This document shows positions 8,528-54,599 of a stretch of DNA of 64,000 nucleotides, in pieces. The translations under genes and the position numbers were made by a program. The notes below the pieces were generated by a model. That model saw nothing but the letters and a program-made list of their open reading frames with translations, was not told where the DNA came from and made no database searches. The DNA is from Symbiodinium sp. CCMP2592 (Eukaryota > Sar > Dinophyceae > Suessiales > Symbiodiniaceae): positions 124,001-188,000 of the forward strand of contig CAJNDT010004924.1 in the NCBI GenBank assembly GCA_905221615.1. The letters are read 5' to 3'. Each line of letters begins with the position of its first letter. Position 1 is the stretch's first letter.

Positions 8528-11090
8528 TCAAGTAGCTGCGGCCGAAGGAGAACAAGGAGAGCTGACCTTAATTAACTCCGAAAAGTACTGGGCCTGATGG
8601 AAATCAGCGGTGCGAAACAAGAAATCCCAGGTGTCCGGAAGAACGGGGGGTGTAAACCCGAGTTGCACCGCCCACCTATCCGGCAGACGCTTGGGGCAGA
8701 CTGCAGACCGCGACAGCAAATCGACTTCCTCAGAGACTCTGGTAAATTTCGCAGCATCAACGTCGCGCGCATCCGCAGCCCCCTCCAATACATGTTTCTG
8801 CAACAGGTGGGGAGGGAGTACAACCACGGCCTGCTGTAGGGGGTTGGGATTGGTGACATCATGCAATCGCAGGAGTTCACACATTGAAAGCAAAACCGGC
8901 AGGCTGCAAGGAGCCCTCCCTTCCGAAGACCTAAGTCGGACATGTAGTACTGTGGCATGATGTGGCCGAACCTTAGCTCGGAAACAGTAAATGCATGCAA
9001 CGAGGCTGCCGGGCGTATGTGTCACCCAGAAGGTGACGGAGGTCCTGCTGTTCGCTCGCCAAGGTTTGAGGGAGACAAGCCCCACACGATACATACCTTC
9101 TAGTGCGTCGCGGCGTACTCGGAGGGCCGAGATGCCTCGATCCACAACTACGAGTTGCCGACCTGCCAAGTGTTCTGCGGTGGTGGGGTGCGGGGTCGAG
9201 GCATGCCAGTACTGCAACCATCTAGGCAGCATGGCCGCCCATGCCGCGCGGTCGGCAGCCTGCCACTCCCAGTGCGGCATCTCTCCCAGCTCCTGTAACT
9301 GCTGATAAACAAGCCTGAACTTATGGAATGGGGTCTCCGAAAGCCACGACGGCTTTAAACCCCCCGTGGCCAAGCGGTGACTGCCCATGGTCCTAAGCAT
9401 GCGTCGGAGCGGAGTGTCTTCACTGGACCTAGCCAGGTGGCCAAAGTACGTCCAGATGCGAGTGAGCCAAGCAACCTGCCACTGTGGTCCTCGGAACTGC
9501 TGGCAGTAGACATTCAGCGCCCTGCGGCATCCCTGAACATTTTCAAGCCACGTGCTGAAGGGGTCCCGTCCGAACCGGAAGACCCCCAAAAGCAAGGAAT
9601 TCTTAAGCCCTTCGATGCTCTTCAGTGCACGGACCGTAGGCCAGATCACGGAACTACACCATTGCCATTTGGAGCTGATGTAGGAATCAAAGAGGACCGC
9701 CTTGATACGGTGGGGTGTTGTTGGCTTGTCTAGGATCTTCTTCATAGCAAAGAAAGAGTTAGTCATCTTTCGAAGCGGGTGCATCAGGACCATGTCCGGC
9801 GCATTAGTGTGCGCAAGAGGCATCCCAAGGAACATGAGACGATCCCTGCCCTGTAGTGGCACACACGACCCCCGCAGCCAAACCCCTGGAGTGGTCCCCG
9901 CCACGTTAAGGACACTACACTTGGCTGGGTTGACAAACAGCCCGATGGCCGACAAGGTGTCCGTCAGATCTCGCAATTTGATCTGCAGTTCCCTCGCATC
10001 CATGGCAAAAAGCATAATGTCGTCAGCATAGAGCAGGAAGTGCGGCAGCTCAATCTGGTCTGCCCAGCTCGGAAACTCCGTATGACCTCTCAAGTGGAAG
10101 TCAATGGACCTGGAGAAGAGATCAGCCGAGTAGCTACTGCCTTGCATGATCCCCTGTCGGACGTCAGTACGCCACGAGTCCGTACCTAGGCTCATCAATA
10201 GGCGATTCTGGGAACACAACCGCCAGAGCAGAAGGATCTCAGGGCAGACCTCACAGTGGAGGAAGTAATGAACTATCGAGGCATGGGAGAGGCTGTCGAA
10301 CGCAGCCCTAATATCAAGCTTGGCCACATGGGCCTCCACCTGATGCTTTCTACGCAGCACACCTATGATTGTCTGGGCAGCCAAGATTCCATCTACCGTC
10401 TGGGTTTTGGGCCGACAGCCCATCTGACCACTCTGGTACGGAGGACATTTGTTGGCTACTCTGCTCATGAGTAGCCGGCCAAAGATTTTCGACAGGCAGG
10501 GGGACAAGCAGATGGGTCTGAGGTCACCGGGCCCCATTGGTTGAGGGAGTTTGGGGAGCAGGACCACTTTGGCCTCATACCACTCCTCTGGGAGCGGCTC
10601 TTGCCGAAAGAGGAGCCTGTTCATGCACTGAAGAAGTCGACCTTCCCTATCAACCCTATGGTACGCTTTGATGGCTTCGTAGCACACGCCGTCCAGTCCC
10701 GCACTAGTGCGGGGCTTACATTTAGCAACCGCCTTGTCCAGGTCGTCCTTAGTGAAAGACACAGGTCTGACCGAGGTGTGCGTGTCGATCATGCGCTGGA
10801 TCGACTCCTCAGTGGGGGGCGGGAGAAGCGAGGCATATTTACGGTCATAGAATCGCCGCAGTTCAAGGCCAGCAGCTTGCTGACCTCCTCGTTGCTCAAT
10901 GTAGCTAGTTTCAAAGGAAGCATGTGCCGCACTCTTGCGCAGATATGTAATGGCCTGTCGGTCGCCCTCCCGGGCACGTTGCAATATCTCCAGCTGATGC
11001 TGGTGCCGGTCCCGAGTCCGTGTTGCGCGGATTTCGGACAGCAGGTGAGCCCTATAGTCTGGGGGTCCTGACAGGAACGACGTGTGCTTA
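8528..11090 (-). CDS. LINE reverse transcriptase domain
   Basis: RNA-dependent DNA polymerase of a non-LTR retrotransposon. Counting from a TTG at 10984 (the frame is open further upstream, so this is not the real start), motif 0/1 is KPRTSAGLDGV (90-100). LRPICLS is at 155-161 and GCRPKTQTVDG at 189-199. Motif A is LDIRAAFDS (catalytic Asp224), motif B is QGIMQGSSYSADL (277-289), and motif C is LLYADDIMLF (318-327) with the YADD box intact. The thumb and connection region follows, including the WTYFGHLARS segment (511-520) typical of LINE C-termini, then a CxxC...HH cluster at 664-676. The frame differs by one nucleotide from the endonuclease upstream. The continuous 800-residue frame with intact catalytic residues suggests a fairly young insertion. 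Confidence 0.92.
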
Positions 11091-12045
11091 TGAGGGCCTT
11101 GAGCTCCGGGGAGTCCTTATACCGCAGCGAGGGGACCCTACGATCCTTTTGGCAAAGTTCGGACAGCCGAGACGGACAGAAAGATTCCCCAGAGGATGCG
11201 TAAGCTTCTATCTCTTCCACACTGGGAAGCCATCGGCCACATCGGGTGCGAGGACGTGCCCCTCGACACAGCAGGGGTGCAGGAGTTACAACTGTGAGGA
11301 ACACCGGCGCATGATCAGAGGGGAGAGCAACTCGCATGTCATCCCTCTTGTGGGCATGTACTCGACTATGATGTACCCGGAAGAGCACTGCGTCAATTTC
11401 ACTTTCCGCCCCTCGTGCTGTCCATGTAACCCCGACCGACCGGTGAGCCCCCAACGAATACTTCTGCATGAGAGCTCTCAACAACCCCATTCCCGAGAAA
11501 GAGTCTGAAGCGGCATGCAGGTCCTGGTTGAAATCTCCACCAATCAGGAGAGTGGCGTCTTGGGGAGCCTCCTGCAGTTGCACATCCAGGGACTCCAGCG
11601 TGTCTCTCCAGACCTCTTCCGCCGCAGATCGCGGACGAGTCACGGTACTGACCCTCTTACTGTGCGGCAGATGCAGACATGCTAGGTGAATTCGGTGATT
11701 CCCACATGCACCATGCAGAACGAGCCCAACTGGTAGGCCAACCTTACGTGTAGCATGGAATTCCAACTCGGCTTTGACTAGAATTGCTTGGTTGAGGTGT
11801 GCTTCTGGCGAGGCGCAGCAATACAGCTTGTAAGAGACAGTTCCTAAAAGGAAGTCCGAGACCTGAACCTCTGGAGTGGCCCCGGGGCATGCACCTAATT
11901 CCTGCACAAATAACACATCGGGGTATGAAACAGTCCCTTGCCAAAGATCGGCAACCTCACGGAGACTTTTACCATGAAGGTTCCAAGTACATGCTACGAA
12001 TTCTGGCTTGCGGGCAATCCCTCTCGACTTGTTCCGGCCTCCACC
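10789..12045 (-). CDS. LINE apurinic-type endonuclease domain
   Basis: Target-nicking endonuclease of the exonuclease-endonuclease-phosphatase fold. The frame is open right after the TAG at 12046-12048. It shows ACTWNLHG (the conserved Asn of the first strand), LFVQELG (catalytic Glu), GGDFNQDL (Asp and Asn), TWTARGAESEIDAVLF, and finally SDHAPVFL with the catalytic Asp-His pair. All signature residues are present. There is no convincing ATG between the TAG and the first motif, so it was probably translated as a continuation of ORF1 by stop readthrough, or the TAG is a mutation. The meaningful part ends near 11090, where similarity passes to the RT frame; the remaining ~300 nt of this frame is out-of-frame RT sequence. 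Confidence 0.85.
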   Translation of the reverse strand, partial: GGGRNKSRGIARKPEFVACTWNLHGKSLREVADLWQGTVSYPDVLFVQELGACPGATPEVQVSDFLLGTVSYKLYCCASPEAHLNQAILVKAELEFHATRKVGLPVGLVLHGACGNHRIHLACLHLPHSKRVSTVTRPRSAAEEVWRDTLESLDVQLQEAPQDATLLIGGDFNQDLHAASDSFSGMGLLRALMQKYSLGAHRSVGVTWTARGAESEIDAVLFRVHHSRVHAHKRDDMRVALPSDHAPVFLTVVTPAPLLCRGARPRTRCGRWLPSVEEIEAYASSGESFCPSRLSELCQKDRRVPSLRYKDSPELKALISTRRSCQDPQTIGLTCCPKSAQHGLGTGTSISWRYCNVPGRATDRPLHICARVRHMLPLKLATLSNEEVSKLLALNCGDSMTVNMPRFSRPPLRSRSSA

Positions 12046-13414
12046 CTAGGGCCCAGACGACTCCACCTCAAAATGTGTGTGAAGCTCCTTAAGCTGAATA
12101 CCTAGCGTCTGGGCGAGCAATGGGCCAGGAACCCACCACCCGGTTTCGTTGCCCCGGACATCGAGCAGTAGCAGGGCCCCCTCGTCCGGCCGTTTCTGGT
12201 CCACATGAGCCAAGACACTGATGCCATTGGCCCAGAATCGGCCGCGCCAGTCAAACTCAAAGTCGCGGGGAGAGAGGTGTTTGGCTACCAGGTTCTTTAA
12301 GGAAACTATGGCACGAATTCGTGCTCGTTCCTCTGGGCTTCTGTTTCGCTTGGCCCACAGGGTTGAAGTAGGCTGTCCTAGGATCCCACTAGCACGTGCT
12401 ACAGATTTCAGTGCCTCCACACACATGCTCTGTACCTTGCGCCTTTCTGACAAATTGTCCTGCATGTACAACAGATCCACTCGACACGTGTTGGCTCGTA
12501 CAGAATTGCAGTACATGGTTTGAAGCAGGGGCTCACACTCCGCTCTCCCGAACCACTCTCGGACTTCTCTCTCGATGTCTTCACGCTTAGCATCTTTCCA
12601 ACCCCCTAATACAATCTGCCAATCGTCATGGGTGGCGCCGCCTCTACCCCCTCTAGGGGAGTGGGAGGGCGTGAAGCCCGAAGCAGCACTGGGAGATTTT
12701 GATCGGTAGTCACGAAGCTCCTGCTCAAGTGCTGCCAGTCGCAACTCTAACGCCGAAGTCCTTTCTAGGTGTGTATCCTGACGGGACTCCAAAGACTGAA
12801 CTTTAAGAGCGATCCCCTGAACAGCTTCGTTGTTACGCTCAAGAGCCTGCATCTGGTCCTGTTGTCCTTGGTTCAAGCGGTCGATGCCCGCCTGGATGGA
12901 CGCCGCCCAGGGCGGGGGAACGTCGTCCCCAATGTGGTATTCCTGAGGCAGAGGCCGCTTCCCTTTATCAGGGAGCCCTCCCCCGCCAAAAGAGTGGCGG
13001 CGGCTGCAACCCCAGTGACGGTCCTTTGGCAGGCGCTGGGTACGGCTCAACCGCCGGCCGGGCTTTCTTCTCAGGGCTCGTACGGGGGGAAGTTTTCGGG
13101 GGGCGACTACTACCGTGCTTGGCTATGAGGTTCGCTGCAACCGCCGCCGCTTGGGCGTGCTTGGCTTCGGTTTCTTCCAGACCAACCCCCCGGCCCGGCC
13201 CCGGATCTCCATTCCCGGCCTCGCCCCCATCCCCTAGAGCTGCACGGAGCGCATCCCGAGCAGCATCCTTCATGTCCATGTCTGGCTGTTCCGCATCCAG
13301 CAAATGCCCGGAGCTGATGGGCGTCCCCGCCTGGTCATCACCCAAGTGGCCTCCCACAGCCCCACTCCGATGCAGGTTGGGCAGAAGCAGAGTTGAATCC
13401 TCGGACCTCGCCAT
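12046..13414 (-). CDS. LINE ORF1-like nucleic-acid-binding protein, frameshifted
   Basis: The ATG at 13414 opens a frame of about 148 codons, rich in Gly, Pro and Ala, with a Lys-containing RPPKTSPRTSPEKKARP segment. A one-nucleotide shift within about 12970-13045, near a C-run at 12979-12984, leads into the second frame. That frame has a coiled coil (NQGQQDQMQALERNNEAVQG and following heptads), a Ser/Gly linker, and a compact domain with DWQIVLGGWKDAKREDIER and FEFDWRGRFWANG. The layout (disordered N-terminus, coiled coil, then an RRM-like region) is that of L1-type ORF1 proteins, which coat element RNA. The assignment is by position and architecture, not by a diagnostic motif. It ends at TAG 12046-12048, in frame with the endonuclease. 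Confidence 0.7.
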
Positions 13415-13578
13415 CACCGACGGACGACGACGAAGAGAAACAGGGAGAGTTTGAACAAGGAGGGCCTCAGAACAAGTATCGAGGGGGGGTCCTGCTCAAG
13501 ACACCGCCCGGCAATGCCCCGCTCAGGTGCGAATCACACACCAGGAGTTCGGGGGGACACTCGCCAGCTGTCGGCAGT

Positions 13579-13614
13579 CTTGAGCCAAAATGGCTTGAGC
13601 CAAAATGGCTACGG
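13579..13614 (-). other. Tandem spliced-leader relict at the LINE 5' end
   Basis: Read on the minus strand, 13614-13594 is the complete 21-nt core of the dinoflagellate SL (CCGTAGCC...GCTCAAG). 13593-13579 is a second 15-nt piece (CCATTTTGGCTCAAG). This is the pattern left when a trans-spliced mRNA is reverse-transcribed, inserted, transcribed again and trans-spliced a second time. It lies 165 nt upstream of the ORF1 start. Confidence 0.93.
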
Positions 13615-18065: not shown

Positions 18066-18963
18066 GCGAACGCTTGAGGGTGCCTCTGCTAGAGTCTCTT
18101 GCATTGAATGAGGCGCAGGCCCGGGACCCAAGATACGCCACTCAGGAATGCTGCTAAGCACGAACCGCCAGCTTCAGCAGCAACATGGTTCAAACCCTCG
18201 TGAAAGGCAGAATCTCACACTTTGCTGCAGAGACACTTCGATCTCCTTCTCAACGGCTTCAAAGAGGCTGAGGTCGTCATGCCGGCCTTTGCTTCGGTCA
18301 GCAGCCACTGAGTGAAGCTTCAAAGCATCCCTGCGGCTTCACATGGGATGCAACATGATGCAAACCAAACCTCTTAGCCCCCATGCCGAAATCCTTAAAC
18401 CCCTACAGGCCCGGTTATTCAACCCTGAAGTAACGCTCTGACACCTCCCTCCTCAGATCTCGGAAGCTCCCCCAATCTCCGGGGGTCCCTACACAAAGCC
18501 GCGCGGAGGTGAATGCAACTTCCGGCGCCGCTGAGAGCCGGCGGTAGCCTGGGAGCCGGCGCATCCTTCTCTCCAGTATTTGTTTTAAGGGGTCTTGGTT
18601 CTGTATCATTCAATGGAAGTTTTCATGCTGTCTTATGTATGTTTGTATAATGGTAGCTTCTTTAAGGCTTTCTGCCTTTTTTGAGGGTTTATTAACATTC
18701 TTTAGCGATTTATTGCTTGTTTACAGGGTCTATGAGGTTTTACACTGACTCTGAGCGCCTGCCGGGCAAACTGCAAGCTTCAAGATTGACTCTCGCTCAA
18801 CTGTTTCATCTCCAATAAGCCGAGGATATTATCTCTATATAGCATCTCTAAGCACTTGGCGGTGCTCAAGAAGCTCCGATGCAAAACACCGGAGCAATCT
18901 TTGCAGAGAGCCGTGGAACGAGGCCAAGCGCCTCCGTCAAAACTTCAGACACTTCTGGTCTTT
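18066..18963. other. 3' flank of the protease gene, no gene recognised
   Basis: Contains short open frames without domains. A minus-strand polyadenylation region for the protease would be expected here, but no firm signal is seen. Confidence 0.4.
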
Positions 18964-20917
18964 TCACACGACCAACGGCTCCTCCTTGCTTTGAGCCGAA
19001 GGGGTGGCCGTCGCCGACGTGCTGGCGCGGCGGAACATCGCGGCCTGCCGGGCGGCGGCCTCCCGCGCCTCCTCCTCCGAGAGGTCCACCTTGACCTCGG
19101 GGATCGTTGCATCATCGGCGACGCCACAGGTGTTCTTGGCCATCTCCAGGTAGATATAGCCCTGCATCCCCCAGGTCGATGCCCAACTATTGCGCACGAT
19201 CCAGTATGGTTTGGGAGCCGTGGCATTGAAGCCGACGGCCATGACGCAGTGGTCCTGGTACGCCGCGCCCATCGGACCACATGCTTCCGCCGACAAAACA
19301 CCACCGGTGTAATCGTTCCAGACACCTGCGTTGACGCACACGGAGATGGGAGATTCCTCTAATGCAGCTGCCAATCCCTTCAGGTCCTGATTTTCACAGC
19401 TCCCCTCAGTGCACGGCTTCACCGCGTAGCTGTAGCCCGTCACGGCTGCGTAGCCGCCTGACAGCTGCATGTCAGGGCCGTCCATGGCTGCCACTTTCTC
19501 CTTGGGGCAGGCGACGGTGTCTGTGGACTCTGTAAGGCTCTGCTGGTAAGGGATGTAGAAGCTGTTGGCCAGGCCCGGCGCGGTCTTGAGATATTCGTAG
19601 GCACCCTCCGTGAAGCCCCCATTGCATCCTTGGCAACCATAAGTTCCGGTGCTGGGCGCGCAGCTGGTGATCCTGGGGTCTTCTTAAGGGATTCTTTTTA
19701 AATTGCCAGAATAAGGAAACCATATTATATACTATAGATCCCTATTATGGTAACTTAAATGACTTAAATTAAAGCCTTTAACGAGAACCCAGGATCTGTT
19801 GGGGAGACAGAGCAATGTCGTACCTGCCGCCGGAGGCCAGGATCAGTTGGGACTCGATGGCTTCCGTCGCACTGAATGCCCAGCCTAGGTTCAGGCTGAC
19901 CCTCTTTAAAAGTCGGTTTAGGGTTTAGGGTTCAGGGTCGGTAAGCAGATTCGTGAGAAAATGACAGTATTTCGTAGACGCACACAAGGAATTATGTGAT
20001 AGTACAGAATCAAAAACATTCCAATGGCCAAAACTGTAGGGGCCTTAAATCGTCGCCTTAATCGTTCGAACAGGGTTTTAAGGGATATTAGACTAGATCT
20101 GATTATAATAAGGAGCCCTCATCACCCTATTCTAATTACTAAGGCCCCTACATTTGCTTCCCGCCAAACCCTATACTAATTATTAAAGCCCTACAGTATA
20201 CCGAGCAGCAGGAGCCGCATTGTCCTTGATTCTTGATGGGCGTCACGGCCTCAGTGAGACGCCAGTCAACAGCCTTCGCCGACACCTGGGCTCTTCTTAA
20301 GGAGTTGAAGCTGCCCTGAAGGACACCGATACTATGTACTAATAGATACCTATTCTGGTAGCTTTTACCTTCACGAAACCGATACAGTACTCTTTACCAT
20401 AGATCTATACTTCTGGTAACTTAGACTCAGCTCCTTAACAGGAGCCCAGACACGGCATCGGAGAAGTTTCGCACCGGCGCGACGGGGACGAAGCTCTTGG
20501 GCTTGCGGTGGCCCCTGGCGAAGCTTGGCAGGTCAGGGGTTTAGCTTAGAGTCTTGTTTTGTTCATTCTTTCTGTTTTAATCTGTTGATTTTTCGTGCTT
20601 TCTTTTCCGTCAGCTGTGCAGATCCAGTTGTGGAACTTTAGGATTTGGTTGGGGCCATAGGGTCTGGGCCACGGCCTCTTGTACTTCTCCTCCTCATGAC
20701 GGTCTGCCATCCAAGTGATGCCGAAGGCGGGCTCACCGTTCAGCTTGTTCAGGTGATCGACTCGTGTCTGTGTGGCCTTGAAGAGCTGGTAGCGGGCCAC
20801 TTCCTCGCCCTTGCTGGAATAGCTCTTCTTGTACTTGTGCTTGAAGGCCTCCCAGTCCGGGTCGGAGATAGCGGCCACCGCCAAGGGAAGAACAGCCCAG
20901 GCTAACGCGCGGAACAT
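18964..20917 (-). CDS. Papain-like (C1A, cathepsin-type) cysteine protease, multi-exon
   Basis: Secreted or lysosomal thiol protease. Exon 1 starts at ATG 20917 with a signal peptide (MFRALAWAVLPLAVAAIS) and an I29-type inhibitor prodomain (DWEAFKHKYKKSY...ARYQLFKATQTRVDHLNKLN). It probably ends near 20676. Exon 2 (about 20500-20454) encodes HRKPKSFVPVAPVRNFSDAV. Exon 3 is 20285-20210 (AVDWRLTEAVTPIKNQGQCG). Exon 4 is 19884-19797 (WAFSATEAIESQLILASGG). Exon 5 is 19672-18964, with CNGGFTEGAYEY, DHCVMAVGF (catalytic His), RNSWASTWG (catalytic Asn) and a charged C-terminal tail to TGA. Gln and catalytic Cys (QGQCGSCW) span the exon 3/4 junction, so the triad is complete. Introns 2, 3 and 4 all start with a 4-bp sequence repeated at the next exon start (GTGT, GCTG, GATC), giving GT, GC and GA donors, all with AG acceptors. 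Exon boundaries of intron 1 are uncertain. Confidence 0.9.
19669..19796 (-). mobile_element. Introner-type element in protease intron 4 (family D)
   Basis: Element 19673-19792 has ends CTGGGGTCTTCTTAAGG and (inverted) CTGGGTTCTCGTTAAAGG, flanked by GATC at 19669-19672 and 19793-19796. On the minus strand the intron is one GATC copy plus the element: GA donor, CCCCAG acceptor, exon resuming with the second GATC. Joining the exons there restores SPQQITSCAPS, as expected for a papain fold. Confidence 0.88.
19885..20209 (-). other. Protease intron 3, with element pieces and a 4-bp flank duplication
   Basis: The intron opens GCTGCTCGG (GC donor) and ends CCTAG before GCTGGGCATTC, so GCTG is duplicated across it. 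It contains two family B-like arms (20036-20200) and a short telomere-like tract (19917-19937). The ends CTCGG...CCTAG resemble the CTGGG...CCCAG ends of family D, suggesting an older introner later invaded by other elements. Confidence 0.7.
20281..20453 (-). mobile_element. Introner-type element in protease intron 2 (family D)
   Basis: Element 20286-20449 starts CTGGGCTCTTCTTAAGGAG and ends CTCCTTAACAGGAGCCCAG, flanked by ACAC (GTGT on the gene strand) at 20282-20285 and 20450-20453. The intron is one GTGT plus the element, giving a GT donor from the target duplication and an AG acceptor from the element end. Splicing yields the in-frame SDAVSAKAVDW. Confidence 0.88.
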
Positions 20918-20964
20918 GATTGAAAGCTGAAACCTGAAAGCCTTGTGCTCCTTTGCTAAGCCTT

Positions 20965-20996
20965 CGTCGAGCCAAAATGCTGCACCAAAATGGCGA
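20965..20996 (-). other. Degenerate tandem SL relict upstream of the protease
   Basis: On the minus strand: GCCATTTTGGTGCAG followed directly by CATTTTGGCTCGACG, two neighbouring versions of the SL 3' part (CCATTTTGGCTCAAG) with a few substitutions. They lie 48-80 nt upstream of the protease ATG, where a retroposed, re-trans-spliced mRNA would carry them. Confidence 0.75.
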
Positions 20997-23240
20997 AGTA
21001 TAGTGTCGCGGATGAGTAACTAACAGCCGTCAAAATCAAGGAATCGAAGGCAAGAGCGCATGGATGAAAATGTCGTGGCTGCAGTTTGCCAGCTTACGAT
21101 TGAGGATGCTGATCTGCCATTCACCTCTGCAGTCACGTTTCGTTTTTGTACAGGCAACGGGGCCTCGCAAAGATGTGATGCCAAAAGGAGGTCACTAGCC
21201 ACATAAGTTCATCGACAAGATTCCCTCAGAAACTTACAAGTTCCCTGCAACATGCAACTGTAACCTGACACCAGCGCCAGTCAACCAGGCAAAAGCGCTC
21301 ATGAGAGCCTAAAATCCACTGATGGGAGGCCAAAAGCGGCGTTTAAGATTCTTGGGGTAGGGATTCCTGAATATGAACCTTTGGCCTCCTATGATCCACT
21401 CAGCTCGCCTGGCCACCCTAGTGAGACCAAGCTGCGGCGCAGCTGTGTCTTTGAGCCGCGGCCGCCGCTTCTGAGCCCTTGCAAGCTTCTTCTGCAGCTC
21501 AGGCAAGCACAGAAAAAAACTCTGCATCTGTTCTTACATATTCCATATGACATGCTATATAATGGCTCATGTGCTGTGCTTAGCGGCAAGGAGCGTGCCA
21601 ACTTCACAAAACTATGGGCGGACCCGCCTGGCGATGGCCCCCTCGCAATCCAGCTCCCCGGACGGCACATGGGCGCCCAGGGGGCGATTGTAGAGCGCCA
21701 TGCTGGCGCATTGCGAAGCTGTTTCTTGATGGGTGCCACGTGTGCAAAGACTATGCTGAGCCCTTCGGGTCGGGAGCTTCGGGTTGGCCTGGGGGTGTCA
21801 GCTTGCACGGGCTTCAGATGGCTGCAGGCTCTGGATCCCTGGTTCTGGCGAATCCGGCGGCATCCTGCAGCCCTGTGAGTTATGGGGACAGGCGGGAACC
21901 ACATCTATACAACGTAAGCCTATCGTTTCTCGTGAACTGATGAAGCCAGGCAGCGGAGGTTGAACTGGACTTTTCTTAAGCTGCTGGCGCATCAAGCCTG
22001 CCGAAGTGATTCGCAGTTCTGGCAACGAGCCCTCCGAGCGCAGAACCGAGGTTGGCGTCGGTGGACACGTCAACAGCCACAGATGCCCTGAGCAAATGAA
22101 TTTGTAACATATAAGTAGATTATAAGTAGTATGCACGTATGTGAGTATGCGCGCATGCACGCATGCATGCATGTGTGTATGTGTGTATACATACATACCT
22201 ACATAGTCTACACAAACAGTAGTATAGTAGAGAATTCACGTGCGCAGCTCCACTGCAAGCGCCCTAGGCTTCCGCGAAGCCACGGAAAACCCGGTGAGCC
22301 AGAGCTCCGCAGGACTTGCGGCCCAGCTGCGTGGTTTCAGTGACCACTTTGTCAACAGCAGCAGCGACGGTTCCCGCCTGCTCCCATGATTCGAGCAACA
22401 GGAACACGACGCTTTTAATTTTGGCAGGTACTCCCAAGCTGCTTCTAGGCCGTCTGTCCATCATGCAACCCACAGACGTCATGAGCATGAGCCGTGCTGT
22501 CCCCTACCGCAAGACCGGGATCAGGAAGCAACTCAAAGCATTAGACCATACTCGTCTAACTTGTTAACTTGTCCTGTTCCTGCTTGGTACTCCCGCACCC
22601 TAATTACTTGGTTTCAAGCATCAGCAACATGTCGGTCATGGCCTCAGCCTCGGCATCGTGACCAGCAACAGGAGGCATTTGCGAGAAGTCCGCAACCTCA
22701 GGAGACTTTCGATAGCGGCAGCGCGTGTTCGGGGGCGTTGACCGATTCGAATAACCTTCGAGAGAACATCAAACCCTTTTTCAGATGGCTTGGATTGTAT
22801 GCCAGCGAACACTCCTCAACAGCGGGGCCTTCTCGTTTGACGAGGGATGCAAACGCGGGAGTGAAAGAAACACGAGAAGTGAAGAAGAGTCGACGATCTC
22901 CTGAACTGTCTTCCGAAGTACTATCTGAACTAGCTTCTGAACTACACATCCGGCATGGGGCAACCTAGAGACTGCAGAACATCAAACCCTTTTCAGCACG
23001 GACTGAGGTGCCGGCCAGCGCCCACGAACATCAAACCCTAAACCTCAGCTGAAACCAAGTAGGGGCCCCGACCCACTCGAGCTCCACAGCAGGCGGTGCC
23101 TGCTCCTTTCTACGCGTGAAGCAGGAAAAGTTGGAGGTGCCAAGTTCTAGAACCTGGTACGTGCCGATGCTCCGAGCCGAAGGACGGACTGCCAAGTCAC
23201 TTGCGGCGATCTAGAATTCCAAAGGACAACAACGCGACGC
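20997..23240. other. No gene recognised
   Basis: Open frames on both strands at 21381-21904 have no recognisable domain. A CATG/CATA microsatellite lies at 22128-22202. I see no other feature. Confidence 0.45.
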
Positions 23241-25194: not shown

Positions 25195-25311
25195 GTTGCT
25201 GGGTTCTTGCTTAGGACTTTAATTTGCTACCAGAATAGGGATCTATAGGAACTCATATGGCTTACTTATCATAGTAACTTAAACTAAACCCCTTAACAAG
25301 AAGCCAGGTTG
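25195..25311. mobile_element. Family D element, intergenic copy
   Basis: Element 25199-25307 with ends CTGGGTTCTTGCTTAGG and CCTTAACAAGAAGCCAG, flanked by GTTG at 25195-25198 and 25308-25311. The same ends and 4-bp duplication as the two introners in the protease gene. Confidence 0.85.
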
Positions 25312-26440: not shown

Positions 26441-26545
26441 TTATCTGGGTTCTTGTTAGGGATTTGTAATCAGGACATCATTTTATTTACTATAGATCCC
26501 TATTCTGGTAACTTAAGATACATCCCATAACAAGAACCCAGTTAT
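26441..26545. mobile_element. Family D element, intergenic copy
   Basis: Element 26445-26541 with ends CTGGGTTCTTGTTAGGG and CCCATAACAAGAACCCAG, flanked by TTAT on both sides. The best-conserved terminal repeats of the four copies. Confidence 0.87.
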
Positions 26546-27776: not shown

Positions 27777-30029
27777 CTACAAGTAAAGTGTCAGAGCTTC
27801 AGGGATGCGCGAATTTCGCTTGATGAATGAAAACCAAAACATTGCACGAAAGGTGGGGTGAAACAGGACGACCACTGCCTGGACCGCCGAAAGAGCTGTC
27901 CACACGAAGGGGCAGTAATACACAAACAAAGCGACAGGCGCCGCTAGGTCGGTTGGCGGACGTACCAGGATGTACACTTGCAAGGCAGGGAGCGAAGCTA
28001 TAACAACACACACCCACATGCGTAACCAGATCATCAGACAGCAGTCCAAGACGACGGGTATTGGCCTCTCGCTGGGCACGCAGCCTGCCGCTTTAAAGCC
28101 TGCAGTGCCTACAGCAAGAAGAAGGACAAGAACTGGCGTTGCAAGGAGAACCATGCTGGGGACAGTGAGCCAAAGGTCTCCAACCAAGGATCTTCCATCT
28201 GAAATTAGAAAGCTATACTCGAAGAGGCCAAATAAAAAATGGCACGAAAACGCGATGAAGATATTGGCCAGGAGTGACTTTTCAAGATAGACTTCCAACT
28301 TCTGAATGGAGGGGGCACCAGCGCAAGTCATGGTCAGATGGATCTCGCCATATCTCCTCAAGATCTCGTTCCGCCGAGTCTGTAGGATGGCCACAGCTTC
28401 TTTTCCGAAGCAGTTGTGATCGAGCGACAGCATTTGCAAAGCAACATTCTCAAAGAGGTCTGCCATGCTGGCTGCTCCGTCATCTGCAATGGAGTTGGAG
28501 CTCAGGTCCAGTTTTCGCAAGAAGCAGTTGTGGATCAAGGCATCGGAGAGGTGCTTGGCCCCTGTGCACCCAAGCACATTGTGAGACAAATCCAGGGATT
28601 CCAACCTGGTTTCCTTGCATGCGAGTGCGTCTGCCAGACCCAATGCACCTTCCGCGTCCACCAGGCACTCAGTGAGTGTCAGGTGCAAGACTGCACTGTT
28701 TCCCTTCAAGCCCAAAGCTAGCTTGCGGACTGCGTCCATGGGGATGCGAAGCTTGCTGAAATTCAGTTCTTGCATCGTCAAAACGGTGGATAAGGCCTCT
28801 GCACCACGACGGTCAACCTGGCTGTTGCTGATCCGCAGGACCGTCAGGTTCTTGTAAAATGGCAGCGAGGCAGAGAGGATCGGAAGCTCGCGAGGTGGCA
28901 AAACGGACATCTCCAGCATCTCACATTCCGCCGCTTTTTCCATGAACACACGTCCCTGCAACTCCTTAACGGCCTCGGCACTGTCTTCGTGCGTGAATAA
29001 CAGCTCGCGGTTGGCCACTTTTGCTTGGAACATCGCAGGTGCCATGGGAGCTCTGGTCCAGGTCTCCGGAGACACGGAGGAGAGCGAGACAGTCTGTTGA
29101 GAGTTGCTGCGCATGCTCGACCACTGGCACTCAGCCTCACACCAACCCCGCATAGAGTAAGGTGTGGAGTTCTGCTTGAGATCTGCCAAAGGCCGCACTT
29201 CCACCTTTCCATCTTGAGGGACTTCTGTCTCTGTGAAGAATACTTGGACTTGCTTCTGTCGGTCAGCTTCTTCAAAAGGGGCCAAGTCCTCAATGCGGTA
29301 GGTCCATGTGAACTCATGTGTGTAAAAGAAGTGCATGTGCATCATCGTGTATTGAAAGCTTCTGTTCTGATGGAGGCTTGTGCGGTAGAACTGATAAACC
29401 GACATGTAGTCCAAGAAATACCAGGAAAACCGGTCGTGCCAAAGCTGGGCCCCGGCGATCATTGCCAGTTGATTTCCCCTGGGATCCGGGTGCTCCCTGG
29501 TTTCCCACACGTGAGAGACGCCGATGATCCGAACCTTGCTACGATATGCTTCGTCTGTCTTCCACTTCAGCAAGTCCTCGCGCGTGACGAAAGCGTTCTG
29601 GTACTTCACCTGGTTTTCCAACTCCTGGCGACGGATGAAAGTTTGCCCATCCCTTTCAAGAGCTGTCAGGAAATCCCCACGGACGAGTCGAATGTCTACC
29701 CTGTCGTCCAGGAGTAGGTCGGCAAGCCCAGCAGGATCCTTCAGGTTTCTATAGAGCAGCCGTACTGGGCCGTCGTGCATTGCGACAGCAACCTCCTCTT
29801 CGTCGAATCGCGAGGCGTCCCTAAAGGCAAAATGCTGCGCAACAGCACGGCGTGCGTGTTTCGGCCAAATGCAAGAACCGAAGATACAGTCAGTGCAAGC
29901 AAGATAAGAATCTGCAGCACACCGTTTCTTTGATGACAGCAGTGAAACATAGCAGCATGTCTTGCTTGGGCGTTCTCTGTGGTCGTCGTGTTGTGTTTTG
30001 CCTCGGGCCGGGCCTAGGGAGGCGTCCAT
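27777..30029 (-). CDS. HET-like / leucine-rich-repeat / multi-pass membrane protein (750 aa)
   Basis: One uninterrupted frame from ATG 30029. Residues 168-183 read IIGVSHVWETREHPDP, and 203-213 WYFLDYMSVYQ. This spacing resembles the SYxW and WxDxxCxxQ motifs of HET (TIR-related) domains. A RGWCEAE motif follows at 294-300. Residues about 395-545 hold five or six RNI-type leucine-rich repeats (LTVLRISNSQV, LESLDLSHNVLG, LRKLDLSSNSIADDG). Residues about 587-608, 622-645, 665-688 and 697-723 are hydrophobic helices, so the C-terminus is probably embedded in a membrane. The combination recalls intracellular sensor proteins, but no NB-ARC or NACHT module is present. The role as a receptor is inference. 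The gene is intronless and no SL relict is visible upstream. LRR and membrane parts are clear; HET-like is tentative. Confidence 0.75.
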   Translation of the reverse strand: MDASLGPARGKTQHDDHRERPSKTCCYVSLLSSKKRCAADSYLACTDCIFGSCIWPKHARRAVAQHFAFRDASRFDEEEVAVAMHDGPVRLLYRNLKDPAGLADLLLDDRVDIRLVRGDFLTALERDGQTFIRRQELENQVKYQNAFVTREDLLKWKTDEAYRSKVRIIGVSHVWETREHPDPRGNQLAMIAGAQLWHDRFSWYFLDYMSVYQFYRTSLHQNRSFQYTMMHMHFFYTHEFTWTYRIEDLAPFEEADRQKQVQVFFTETEVPQDGKVEVRPLADLKQNSTPYSMRGWCEAECQWSSMRSNSQQTVSLSSVSPETWTRAPMAPAMFQAKVANRELLFTHEDSAEAVKELQGRVFMEKAAECEMLEMSVLPPRELPILSASLPFYKNLTVLRISNSQVDRRGAEALSTVLTMQELNFSKLRIPMDAVRKLALGLKGNSAVLHLTLTECLVDAEGALGLADALACKETRLESLDLSHNVLGCTGAKHLSDALIHNCFLRKLDLSSNSIADDGAASMADLFENVALQMLSLDHNCFGKEAVAILQTRRNEILRRYGEIHLTMTCAGAPSIQKLEVYLEKSLLANIFIAFSCHFLFGLFEYSFLISDGRSLVGDLWLTVPSMVLLATPVLVLLLAVGTAGFKAAGCVPSERPIPVVLDCCLMIWLRMWVCVVIASLPALQVYILVRPPTDLAAPVALFVYYCPFVWTALSAVQAVVVLFHPTFRAMFWFSFIKRNSRIPEALTLYL

Positions 30030-52595: not shown

Positions 52596-53951
52596 CTAGG
52601 CACCCGCAATCAGCGATTGCCGCGCCATTGCAGTCTCCAGGATCACATTCGCAGCTCGCACGACTCCCCCTGCCGACTGCATGCGCTTGCTGAGGCCTTG
52701 CGCTGCCTGTCGGAAGGGGTTGCCAGGTGCAGCGTCCACCAGTTGTCGGATGGAAGAGCGAAGGGCCGTGCTGCTGAGGGTCTCCAAGGGCCTTCCAAAC
52801 GCGACGCCGGCTCCGGCCTGAGCGACGGACTGACTGTTGGGGACCTGGTCTCCGAAGAGCGGCACGCCCACCAATGGGACGCCAAATCGAAGTGCCTCGT
52901 GCATGCTGTTGGCACCGCAGTGCGAGAGGAAAGCGTGGCACTTGGGGAGAAGCTCGATCTGGGGAACGGTCTCACGAACAATGAAGTTGAAAGGCGGAGT
53001 GGGGAGGCCCTCCAGCACGTCTGGCTGACAGCCCACCACCAGAACAACCAACACGTCTTCCTCGTCTCTCAGCGCTTCGAAGGCTGTGCGGAAGACGTGC
53101 TGGATGATCTCCTTACCGGTGCAGTTCTCCAGACCGTTGTTGAGCCCCTGCGCTCCGAACTGTTCATCCCAAAAGTGGGAGTTCGCAACAGTGCCAAGCG
53201 AGATCAGCACAAGCCGTTTCGACGCAGCGAGAGCACCGTCGATGACATCCCAGGGCAAGCCACTGGACGGCTTTGACTCCGCATCGGCCCAGGGATGGCA
53301 TACACGCTTCACCTTGGTGTCCAAGAGGGGGCCGACGCACGTAAAGGGAAAATTTCCAAATCGATCACGCTGCACTCCCGCTGCGCGCGGCACGAAGAGC
53401 CCGTCGATCGTGGTGACGATGCTCCGGTTTGGGGAGTAGAACTCCATCAGCCCACCGAAGTGAAAGACGTCCACACCGTACATCTCCAGGATTTCGCGCC
53501 GAGCTCGGCGAACTACCTCGTTGGACTCCCACTCTGCAGTCACCTTGGCAGGTCGAGCGATGACGCCCGGGCCGGGCATAGTCAGGGTGCTCACAGCAGG
53601 AATACCCAGGACCTGCGCTGCCACCAGGGCTTGTGGCAGGAAGGGGTCATACACGATGGCCGTGACTGGCGGGCTGAAGCTTTTCAGCTCGGGGATCAGC
53701 TTCGGGAGCTGTGAAGCCGCCACGGGCATGGACATCATGGGAAACTCATACTCCTCCAGCGACATCCCCTCCTTGAACTCCTCCAAGAGTTGCCAGGTAG
53801 CTCCGGCGGCCTCGACCACCTCACGCATCTGTGGGGGCACGAAGTAGGTCACCGCCACGCCTCGCGAGCGCAGCTCAGCCACCACCGGCAGGGTCGGGTT
53901 CATGTGTCCGGCAGCTGGAAGGTTGAAGAACACGATGTGCTGCTGCTCCAT
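52596..53951 (-). CDS. UDP-sugar-dependent glycosyltransferase, bacterial MGT-like (451 aa)
   Basis: GT-B fold transferase moving a sugar from a nucleotide donor to a small acceptor. Start is ATG 53951 (MEQQHIVFFNLPAAGHMNPT); the frame upstream is just translated CA repeat and is not protein. N-terminal domain: HIVFFNLPAAGHMNPTLPVV with the His that acts as base in this family, then VYDPFLPQALVAAQVLGIPA. C-terminal donor-binding domain: FLSHCGANSMHEALRFGVPL and GVPLFGDQ, the hallmark HCG...E...P...DQ motif. Length and the NLPAAGHMNPTLP start resemble bacterial macrolide-type transferases more than plant UGTs. Intronless, with an SL-like relict 50-70 nt upstream, so the copy was probably retroposed. 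Bacterial origin is inference from the motifs. Confidence 0.92.
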   Translation of the reverse strand: MEQQHIVFFNLPAAGHMNPTLPVVAELRSRGVAVTYFVPPQMREVVEAAGATWQLLEEFKEGMSLEEYEFPMMSMPVAASQLPKLIPELKSFSPPVTAIVYDPFLPQALVAAQVLGIPAVSTLTMPGPGVIARPAKVTAEWESNEVVRRARREILEMYGVDVFHFGGLMEFYSPNRSIVTTIDGLFVPRAAGVQRDRFGNFPFTCVGPLLDTKVKRVCHPWADAESKPSSGLPWDVIDGALAASKRLVLISLGTVANSHFWDEQFGAQGLNNGLENCTGKEIIQHVFRTAFEALRDEEDVLVVLVVGCQPDVLEGLPTPPFNFIVRETVPQIELLPKCHAFLSHCGANSMHEALRFGVPLVGVPLFGDQVPNSQSVAQAGAGVAFGRPLETLSSTALRSSIRQLVDAAPGNPFRQAAQGLSKRMQSAGGVVRAANVILETAMARQSLIAGA

Positions 53952-54000
53952 GACCGATGATCTTGTCCTTCCACGAAGCTGTGGGAAGATAGCTGGAGAG

Positions 54001-54022
54001 CTGAAATGGCTTGAGCCATGAC
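54001..54022 (-). other. Probable SL relict upstream of the glycosyltransferase
   Basis: On the minus strand, GTCATGGCTCAAGCCATTTCAG carries an SL end (TGGCTCAAG) followed directly by the start of another (CCATTT). Located 50-71 nt upstream of the ATG. The joint between the two units is the same as in the LINE relict; both units are eroded. Confidence 0.55.
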
Positions 54023-54211
54023 GCAGGGAATGTAAACTAATGTAAATTCGCCCATGGCAACACCCGTGGTGAATCAGGACTCTCATCGGACGGAATTCCT
54101 GCATTTCTGTGACTTTGCTTGCCTCACGTTTCCAGATTTCCATTCTTTGGCCCGGTACTACTTGCAGATGACAGACCCTAAACCCTAAACCCTGATGAAG
54201 CAAACGCACGC

Positions 54212-54464
<253 letters not shown>

Positions 54465-54599
54465 GCAGCTCAGGAAGCCTATTCCCTGCAGGAAGACGTG
54501 AAGCGAGCCGCCCTGGAAGGGCATCCACAGCCGATAGGCTGGCTGCCTTCGCCAGGTGAAAATTCGGCTGTTGGAGAGTTGTCAGCACAAGATCCTGGT

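Follow-up and report, generated by a model that had tools for sequence, protein, structure and literature searches.

The papain-like cysteine protease gene analysed here (gene A), located in a 64,000-nt stretch of dinoflagellate DNA (the window), is probably a second-round retrocopy of a gene resembling its closest paralogue (gene C), later refilled by transposable elements. As a probable RNA copy it would have dropped most of its introns and acquired new ones from elements whose ends and duplications are still readable. Dinoflagellates recycle mRNAs into genes, yet have many introns, and this protease family, with intact genes in one genome, shows how the two can coexist. It may also serve as a template for a genome-wide count, in which the number of leader relicts, the number of introns and the duplication-flanked introns are compared between retrogenes and their parents.

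Structure of gene A and its paralogues

The locus was searched in the 1.098-Gb genome of 5383 contigs, in which the window corresponds to C4878:124001-188000; its leader relicts and its introns of the GT/GC/GA-AG type are as expected of a dinoflagellate. The reading frame of gene A is intact in the corrected model (Table 1), and its translation contains the motifs QGQCGSCW, DHCV and RNSW, which we take to be the Cys, His and Asn motifs of Peptidase C1A. Pfam matches to Peptidase_C1 (1.7e-50) and Inhibitor_I29 (1.9e-9), as well as the best PDB sequence match (9hjy_A, E 1.6e-35), were obtained with a provisional 407-aa model. The two domains of the provisional model and the motifs of the translation place gene A in Peptidase C1A; it has the I29 propeptide and the catalytic-domain motifs in common with the cathepsin L type, and is otherwise an ordinary member. 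An earlier note on this DNA had claimed four introns, and four are present in the corrected model, the fourth being i1. Joining the junctions proposed there at 20453/20286, 20209/19885 and 19796/19673 regained an open frame with QGQCGSCWAFS, and we infer that i1 to i4 are spliced from the RNA.

Table 1. Location of gene A, its introns and leader relicts, related element copies in the window, and the two paralogues.
Feature	Location	Strand	Remarks
Gene A, papain-like (C1A) cysteine protease, ATG to stop	18964-20917	minus	391 aa, 5 exons
Gene A exons	20676-20917, 20454-20514, 20210-20285, 19797-19884, 18964-19672	minus	final spliced model
Intron i1, GC-AG, 161 nt	20515-20675	minus	CDS 242; no target duplication (1/4 bases)
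Intron i2, GT-AG, 168 nt	20286-20453	minus	CDS 303; GTGT duplication and terminal-inverted-repeat element
Intron i3, GC-AG, 325 nt	19885-20209	minus	CDS 379; GCTG duplication and weakly inverted ends
Intron i4, GA-AG, 124 nt	19673-19796	minus	CDS 467; GATC duplication and terminal-inverted-repeat element
Inner (older) spliced-leader relict CATTTTGGCTCGACG	20965-20979	minus	common to A, B and C (same CTCGAC change)
Outer (younger) spliced-leader relict ATACTTCGCCATTTTGGTGCAG	20980-21001	minus	ends in AG; only in A among the three paralogues
Element copy, perfect GTTG duplication	25199-25307	plus	same family as i4
Element copy, perfect ATAA/TTAT duplication	26445-26541	minus	same family as i4; no G[TCA] donor
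Paralogue B	contig C5029, from 1462070	plus	387 aa, seven introns
Paralogue C	contig C5293, from 231456 down	minus	387 aa, 18 introns

A protein search of the genome returned two close and intact relatives, B and C, and distant ones at 28-42% identity. B and C were modelled by spliced alignment, with one B junction manually shifted two bases so as to keep the frame open, and the family comparison comprises these three members of one genome and no outside orthologue. Protein identity was 94% for A-C and 78% for both A-B and B-C, with dS of 0.455, 0.704 and 0.738 and dN/dS of 0.07, 0.195 and 0.18 for A-C, A-B and B-C, respectively. In coding coordinates of A, the introns of B are at 94, 233, 368, 478, 952, 1004 and 1050, and those of C at 92, 134, 242, 364, 379, 440, 511, 534, 577, 645, 703, 753, 804, 885, 956, 999, 1044 and 1103. 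Two exact positions (242 and 379) are common to A and C, and none to A and B or to B and C; by spliced alignment, 16 of the 18 C introns are absent from A.

Intron gain in gene A

The starting 4-mer of i2, i3 and i4 (GTGT, GCTG and GATC on the minus strand) recurs exactly just past each intron, and over all four introns of gene A the duplication match amounts to 13 of 16 bases, with a re-pairing probability of 0.04. Read as target duplications, the first copies would give the 5′ splice sites (GT, GC and GA) of i2 to i4, and the end of the insert would give the AG. Both i2 and i4 have the ends CTGGG...CCCAG, with 12/14 and 11/14 paired end positions in their terminal inverted repeats. They had been described earlier as a 4-bp duplication plus a terminal-inverted-repeat element, a description which their perfect duplications, common ends and copies elsewhere bear out.

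At the i2 and i4 sites the coding sequences of B and of C are continuous, and GATC occurs once at the i4 site in both. The empty sites in both paralogues, taken with the duplications and the multicopy family, identify i2 and i4 as insertions in the A lineage, so that the proposed intron gain by element insertion is supported for these two. Relative to B and C, gene A carries an additional codon (Val) at the junction of i2 (DAVSAKA vs DATAKA and DATATA); the site therefore has no exact match in the paralogues, and its alteration preceded, accompanied or followed the insertion. Over aligned bases, identity with the consensus of the family was 90% for i4 and 82% for i2, and these distances of 10% and 18% are, in view of the A-C dS, compatible with insertion after the split of A and C.

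For i3, the claim of the same layout stood, with a GCTG duplication (4/4) and ends weakly inverted at 7/14 positions, but copies were not detected: its 152-nt 3′ half had no genome match except 35 nt over a telomere-like stretch, in a search that skips very common words. Because of this lack of matches, the term element is for i3 an argument from layout only, and i3 was rejected as a proven element. The site is uninterrupted in B, and C has a dissimilar intron at the exact position. It is quite possible, if somewhat below an even chance, that i3 is the C intron of CDS 379 retained in A, in which case the GCTG repeat would be a coincidence or stem from an older insertion. The exact position speaks for such inheritance, since two exact A-C coincidences among four A introns have a probability of 0.018 (null of donor-capable sites), as does the lack of detected copies of the 3′ half. 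Against it, the interior of i3 is unlike the C intron (722/1000 shuffles score as high), the ends are unlike as well, with the C intron at 379 outside the best four of 18, the GCTG duplication is perfect, and the B intron at CDS 952 occupies the same GCTG|GGC target. On balance we lean towards a new insertion into a target site used more than once, and i3 was likely gained by element insertion.

Among the features of introners, multiple copies with the same ends, inverted repeats and an empty site were found for i2 and i4, and a splice-site-giving duplication for i2, i3 and i4. The 3′ half of i3 did not prove multicopy, and its site is uninterrupted in B alone of the two paralogues.

The element family

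The genome search with i4 produced 1451 candidates, of which the best 40 were scored (i4 and 39 others) and the 39 others fetched; the fetched copies are accordingly the best matches to i4 and no random sample. Both the CTGGG and CCCAG ends were intact in 31 of these 39 best matches, and a perfect 4-bp duplication was present in 23 of the 31, against 0/31 for control 4-mers taken 4 bases further out. A consensus of 111 bp was built from 25 of the 39 best matches; 18 of these 25 copies of 111 bp equal the consensus, five are up to 2% off and two are off by 14-15%, and some members of the family are accordingly very young. An exact genome search with a 35-nt element end hit 186 places (reversed control 0), and i2 had five other partial genome matches of 54-61 nt.

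The duplications of the 23 best-match copies are mostly A/T (A42 T37 G7 C6), and only 4/23 could give a G[TCA] donor. Set against these A/T-rich family duplications, the donor-type duplications at i2 and i4, two cases only, fit a filter by splicing. The two copies in the window were also considered as possible introns: a short plus-strand open frame crosses the join of the element-removed sequence at the GTTG copy, and the duplication of the ATAA/TTAT copy gives no donor of this kind.

Introns of B and C

All seven introns of B are introner-like in layout, with 3 or 4 of 4 bases duplicated in each. Altogether 23/28 bases match, in comparison with a re-pairing mean of 15.0 (a fraction of 0.00085 of 20,000 re-pairings was as high), including 3/4 bases at the hand-corrected junction, where the uncorrected register would give 2. 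An 8-bp duplication (7/8) fits better than a 4-bp one at CDS 368. Two B introns are weakly similar to the element consensus (E 2.8e-4 and 2.3e-4), and the 630-nt intron holds a nested full copy of the i4 element, 75% identical.

The borders of the C introns match at 31/72 bases, the re-pairing mean being 31.5, which is no overall duplication signal; the highest border matches of single introns are those at CDS 753 (4/4) and at CDS 134 and 440 (3/4 each). Had 4-bp-duplicating elements entered C later than the A-C split, their duplications would be expected to have remained visible. As a group without a duplication trace, the C introns are older or were made differently, and another kind of gain could remain. 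No other genome copies were found of C's 14 short introns or of a 143-nt B intron of introner layout, and for the latter reason copy number does not separate the intron classes. When the whole C gene served as query, a simple repeat in one of its long introns dominated the hits, which also included an 82-nt match elsewhere to the long intron at CDS 364. Between CDS 364 and 379, C has a 15-nt exon between two introns, with an exact copy of the exon sequence inside the following intron, which was possibly made by a small duplication.

Spliced-leader relicts and probable intron loss

The tandem spliced-leader relict reported earlier before the ATG of gene A is present, its inner part starting 62 nt before the ATG, with the outer part fused to it directly upstream. 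The sequence CATTTTGGCTCGAC is common to A, B and C, with identical departures from the end of the leader; the inner relict is therefore older than the family, and having preceded the A/B/C split it cannot alone date intron loss in A. The outer relict, a degenerate leader, is joined to the first base of the inner one, the counterpart of which in C follows an AG. Such a fusion would be expected if a C-like transcript had been trans-spliced and then reverse-transcribed. Of the 8813 AG-ended sites in the window, 13 reach the leader score of the outer relict, a figure that counts the relict itself as well as at least one perfect leader. As a sign that gene A itself passed through mRNA, the relict is supported by the second leader copy, found only in A.

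DinoSL retrogenes are reportedly the subject of Song et al. 2017. Like such retrogenes, gene A has a relict before the start codon, and its homology to C, which we regard as the parent-like copy, ends at the mRNA 5′-end. A and C are similar over a region that begins at the relict (A 3020, C 2480) and ends within the 3′ UTR, near 18809 (A 5192). Identity was 88.5% from the relict to the ATG and 71.4% over the 75 nt upstream, where the shuffle mean was 71.7%, and blastn gave no match with E < 0.2 between 3.0 kb of A and 2.5 kb of C upstream. Past the 3′ end of homology no poly(A) remnant was seen by eye; it could have decayed.

Support for a second retroposition, accompanied by the loss of many introns, comes from the outer relict, from the point at which homology to C breaks off and from the 16 C introns that A lacks. 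The loss was incomplete, however, as i1 is located exactly at the C intron position 242, which rules out full intron erasure in A. The ends of i1 have 11/16 bases alike with this C intron, the best of 18 (next best 10), and the interior gave a non-significant score that 212/1000 shuffles reached; with an interior no better than shuffles, the homology rests mainly on the exact position. By this position i1 was probably inherited from a C-like ancestor, and its retention implies that the RNA template had kept at least one intron, or that the copy recombined with the parent. The earlier claim that retroposition stripped the gene of its introns is supported for most of them and not for i1. No intron of B, the more remote paralogue, falls exactly on a C position, and the C introns are thus not proven to be older than the A-C split.

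Order of events and alternatives

From the observed element ends, duplications, empty paralogue sites, relicts, homology break and missing introns, an order of events with splicing, an RNA template and a C-like parent can be reconstructed. The common ancestor of A, B and C would already have carried one spliced-leader relict. A C-like transcript would then have been trans-spliced at the AG just before the old relict, with most introns removed, and its reverse transcription and insertion elsewhere would have left a second relict and no upstream homology. Survival of i1 could be due to a partly spliced RNA as template or to later recombination of the copy with its parent. Afterwards, short non-autonomous DNA transposons would have entered exons, each duplicating 4 bp of exon; a duplicate starting with GT, GC or GA would serve as the 5′ splice site and the terminal AG of the element as the 3′ splice site, and the whole insert, being spliced out, would be tolerated. 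This route would account for i2 and i4, and probably for i3. The proposal of loss by retroposition followed by gain through insertion is thereby retained for the gains of i2 and i4 and the large loss, with the reservations of incomplete erasure and the origin of i3.

The principal alternative, which we regard as unlikely, assumes gain only: a near-intronless retrogene ancestor from which A, B and C gained introns separately, up to 16 of them in C, with no second retroposition of A. It agrees with the inner relict common to the three genes, with the lack of any exact intron position of B in common with A or C, and with the perfect 4-bp border match of the C intron at CDS 753. It is at odds with the C introns as a group, which lack the duplication trace of B's introns and of i2 to i4 in A, and with the second relict of A, fused at the AG where homology to C is lost; the lack of other copies of the 14 short C introns is a weak test, as the introner-layout B intron shares it.

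An ordinary DNA-level duplicate, having lost its introns one by one and acquired the extra relict by chance, would accommodate the retained i1 and the degenerate state of the outer relict, and is nevertheless very improbable, since 16 introns are missing along the whole gene and homology ends abruptly at the relict, with none between A and C in the 2.5-3 kb compared upstream. Least credible is a pseudogene interrupted by elements, for, even if the splice junctions of gene A are predicted from sequence, all three copies are intact at 387-391 aa with dN/dS of 0.07 to 0.20.

The second-retrocopy account of gene A might be widened to an intron turnover cycle in the protease family, in which introns are removed by retroposition and the exons are later filled again by transposons, often near C positions; this extension is speculative and rather doubtful. 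Five of the seven B introns are at most 6 nt from a C intron (P about 0.006 with donor-capable sites as null, post hoc), and at other cut-offs, likewise post hoc, P was 0.44 (2 nt), 0.06 (4 nt) and 0.003 (9 nt). Insertion hot spots would explain the near-coincidence. If the cycle were true, introns at nearly the same place would have been inserted anew at hot spots, and be neither slid nor conserved.

Comparison with known systems

The introners of Symbiodinium microadriaticum (Gozashti et al. 2022, PMC9860276), as described in the accessible parts of that paper, agree with the introns of gene A in the 4-bp duplications, the terminal inverted repeats, the element-borne 3′ splice site and the duplication-derived 5′ splice site. 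They differ in that the duplications of our fetched copies are mostly A/T, and the likeness is one of layout. According to the available text of a review (PMC11453091), which cites Roy et al. 2023 on five dinoflagellate genomes, introner insertions in dinoflagellates are recent, and gene A corresponds to these genomes in its recent intron gain from introner families. In the Amoebophrya introner elements (PMC7789003, accessible parts), inverted repeats are likewise combined with direct repeats at exon borders, of 3-5 nt in Amoebophrya, where many splice borders are non-canonical; those of gene A run from GT, GC or GA to AG.

DinoSL retrogenes carry, in the consulted portion of the review PMC6050394, leader relicts upstream of the start codon, with several relicts denoting several rounds, and the intron-containing ones have introns "either novel or inherited". 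Gene A is alike in its relicts and introns, and differs in that single introns are traced to elements and to empty paralogue sites. Human retrogenes (PMC3565874, in the part available) also acquired introns after retroposition, by intronization of exon sequence, whereas in gene A inserted elements are responsible. Lineage-specific intron gain is shared with the Symbiodinium sPCP genes in the accessible portion of PMC4201569, from whose text the terms retroposition, spliced leader, direct repeat and transposon are absent.

Retrogenes or introners in dinoflagellates are mentioned in the available parts of PMC12014239, PMC8045281 and PMC10666404, which contained no case of introners refilling a retrogene. 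Nor was one found in the literature at large, covered mostly at the level of titles and abstract openings and thinly for subscription journals. Gene A offers one clear instance of two processes that had been recognised before in dinoflagellates, with unusually good internal controls.

Other features of the window and genome

The 5′ half of i3 includes a repeat (TGTAGGGGCCTTA...) that is partially matched in many parts of the window, and a telomere-like AACCCTAAACCCTAAACC stretch lies in the 3′ half. On the minus strand at 8528-13608, telomere-like CCCTAAA repeats are followed by a tandem spliced leader (CCGTAG-CCATTTTGGCTCAAG-CCATTTTGGCTCAAG), which precedes an open frame, RVT_1 and a sub-threshold Exo_endo_phos match. 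This arrangement resembles a non-LTR retroelement with trans-splicing of its own transcript. Exact or near-exact tandem leaders (up to 3 mismatches) occur at 157 places in the genome (reversed control 0), one of them at the very end of contig C327. When 20 such places were fetched and compared with the non-LTR retroelement of the window, seven matched strongly, seven partially and six hardly at all; with the strong and partial matches among them, the tandem-leader places are not a clean set of retrogenes. The minus strand of the window also contains an open frame with leucine-rich repeats at 27777-30029, and one with a UDP-glycosyltransferase domain at 52596-54524.
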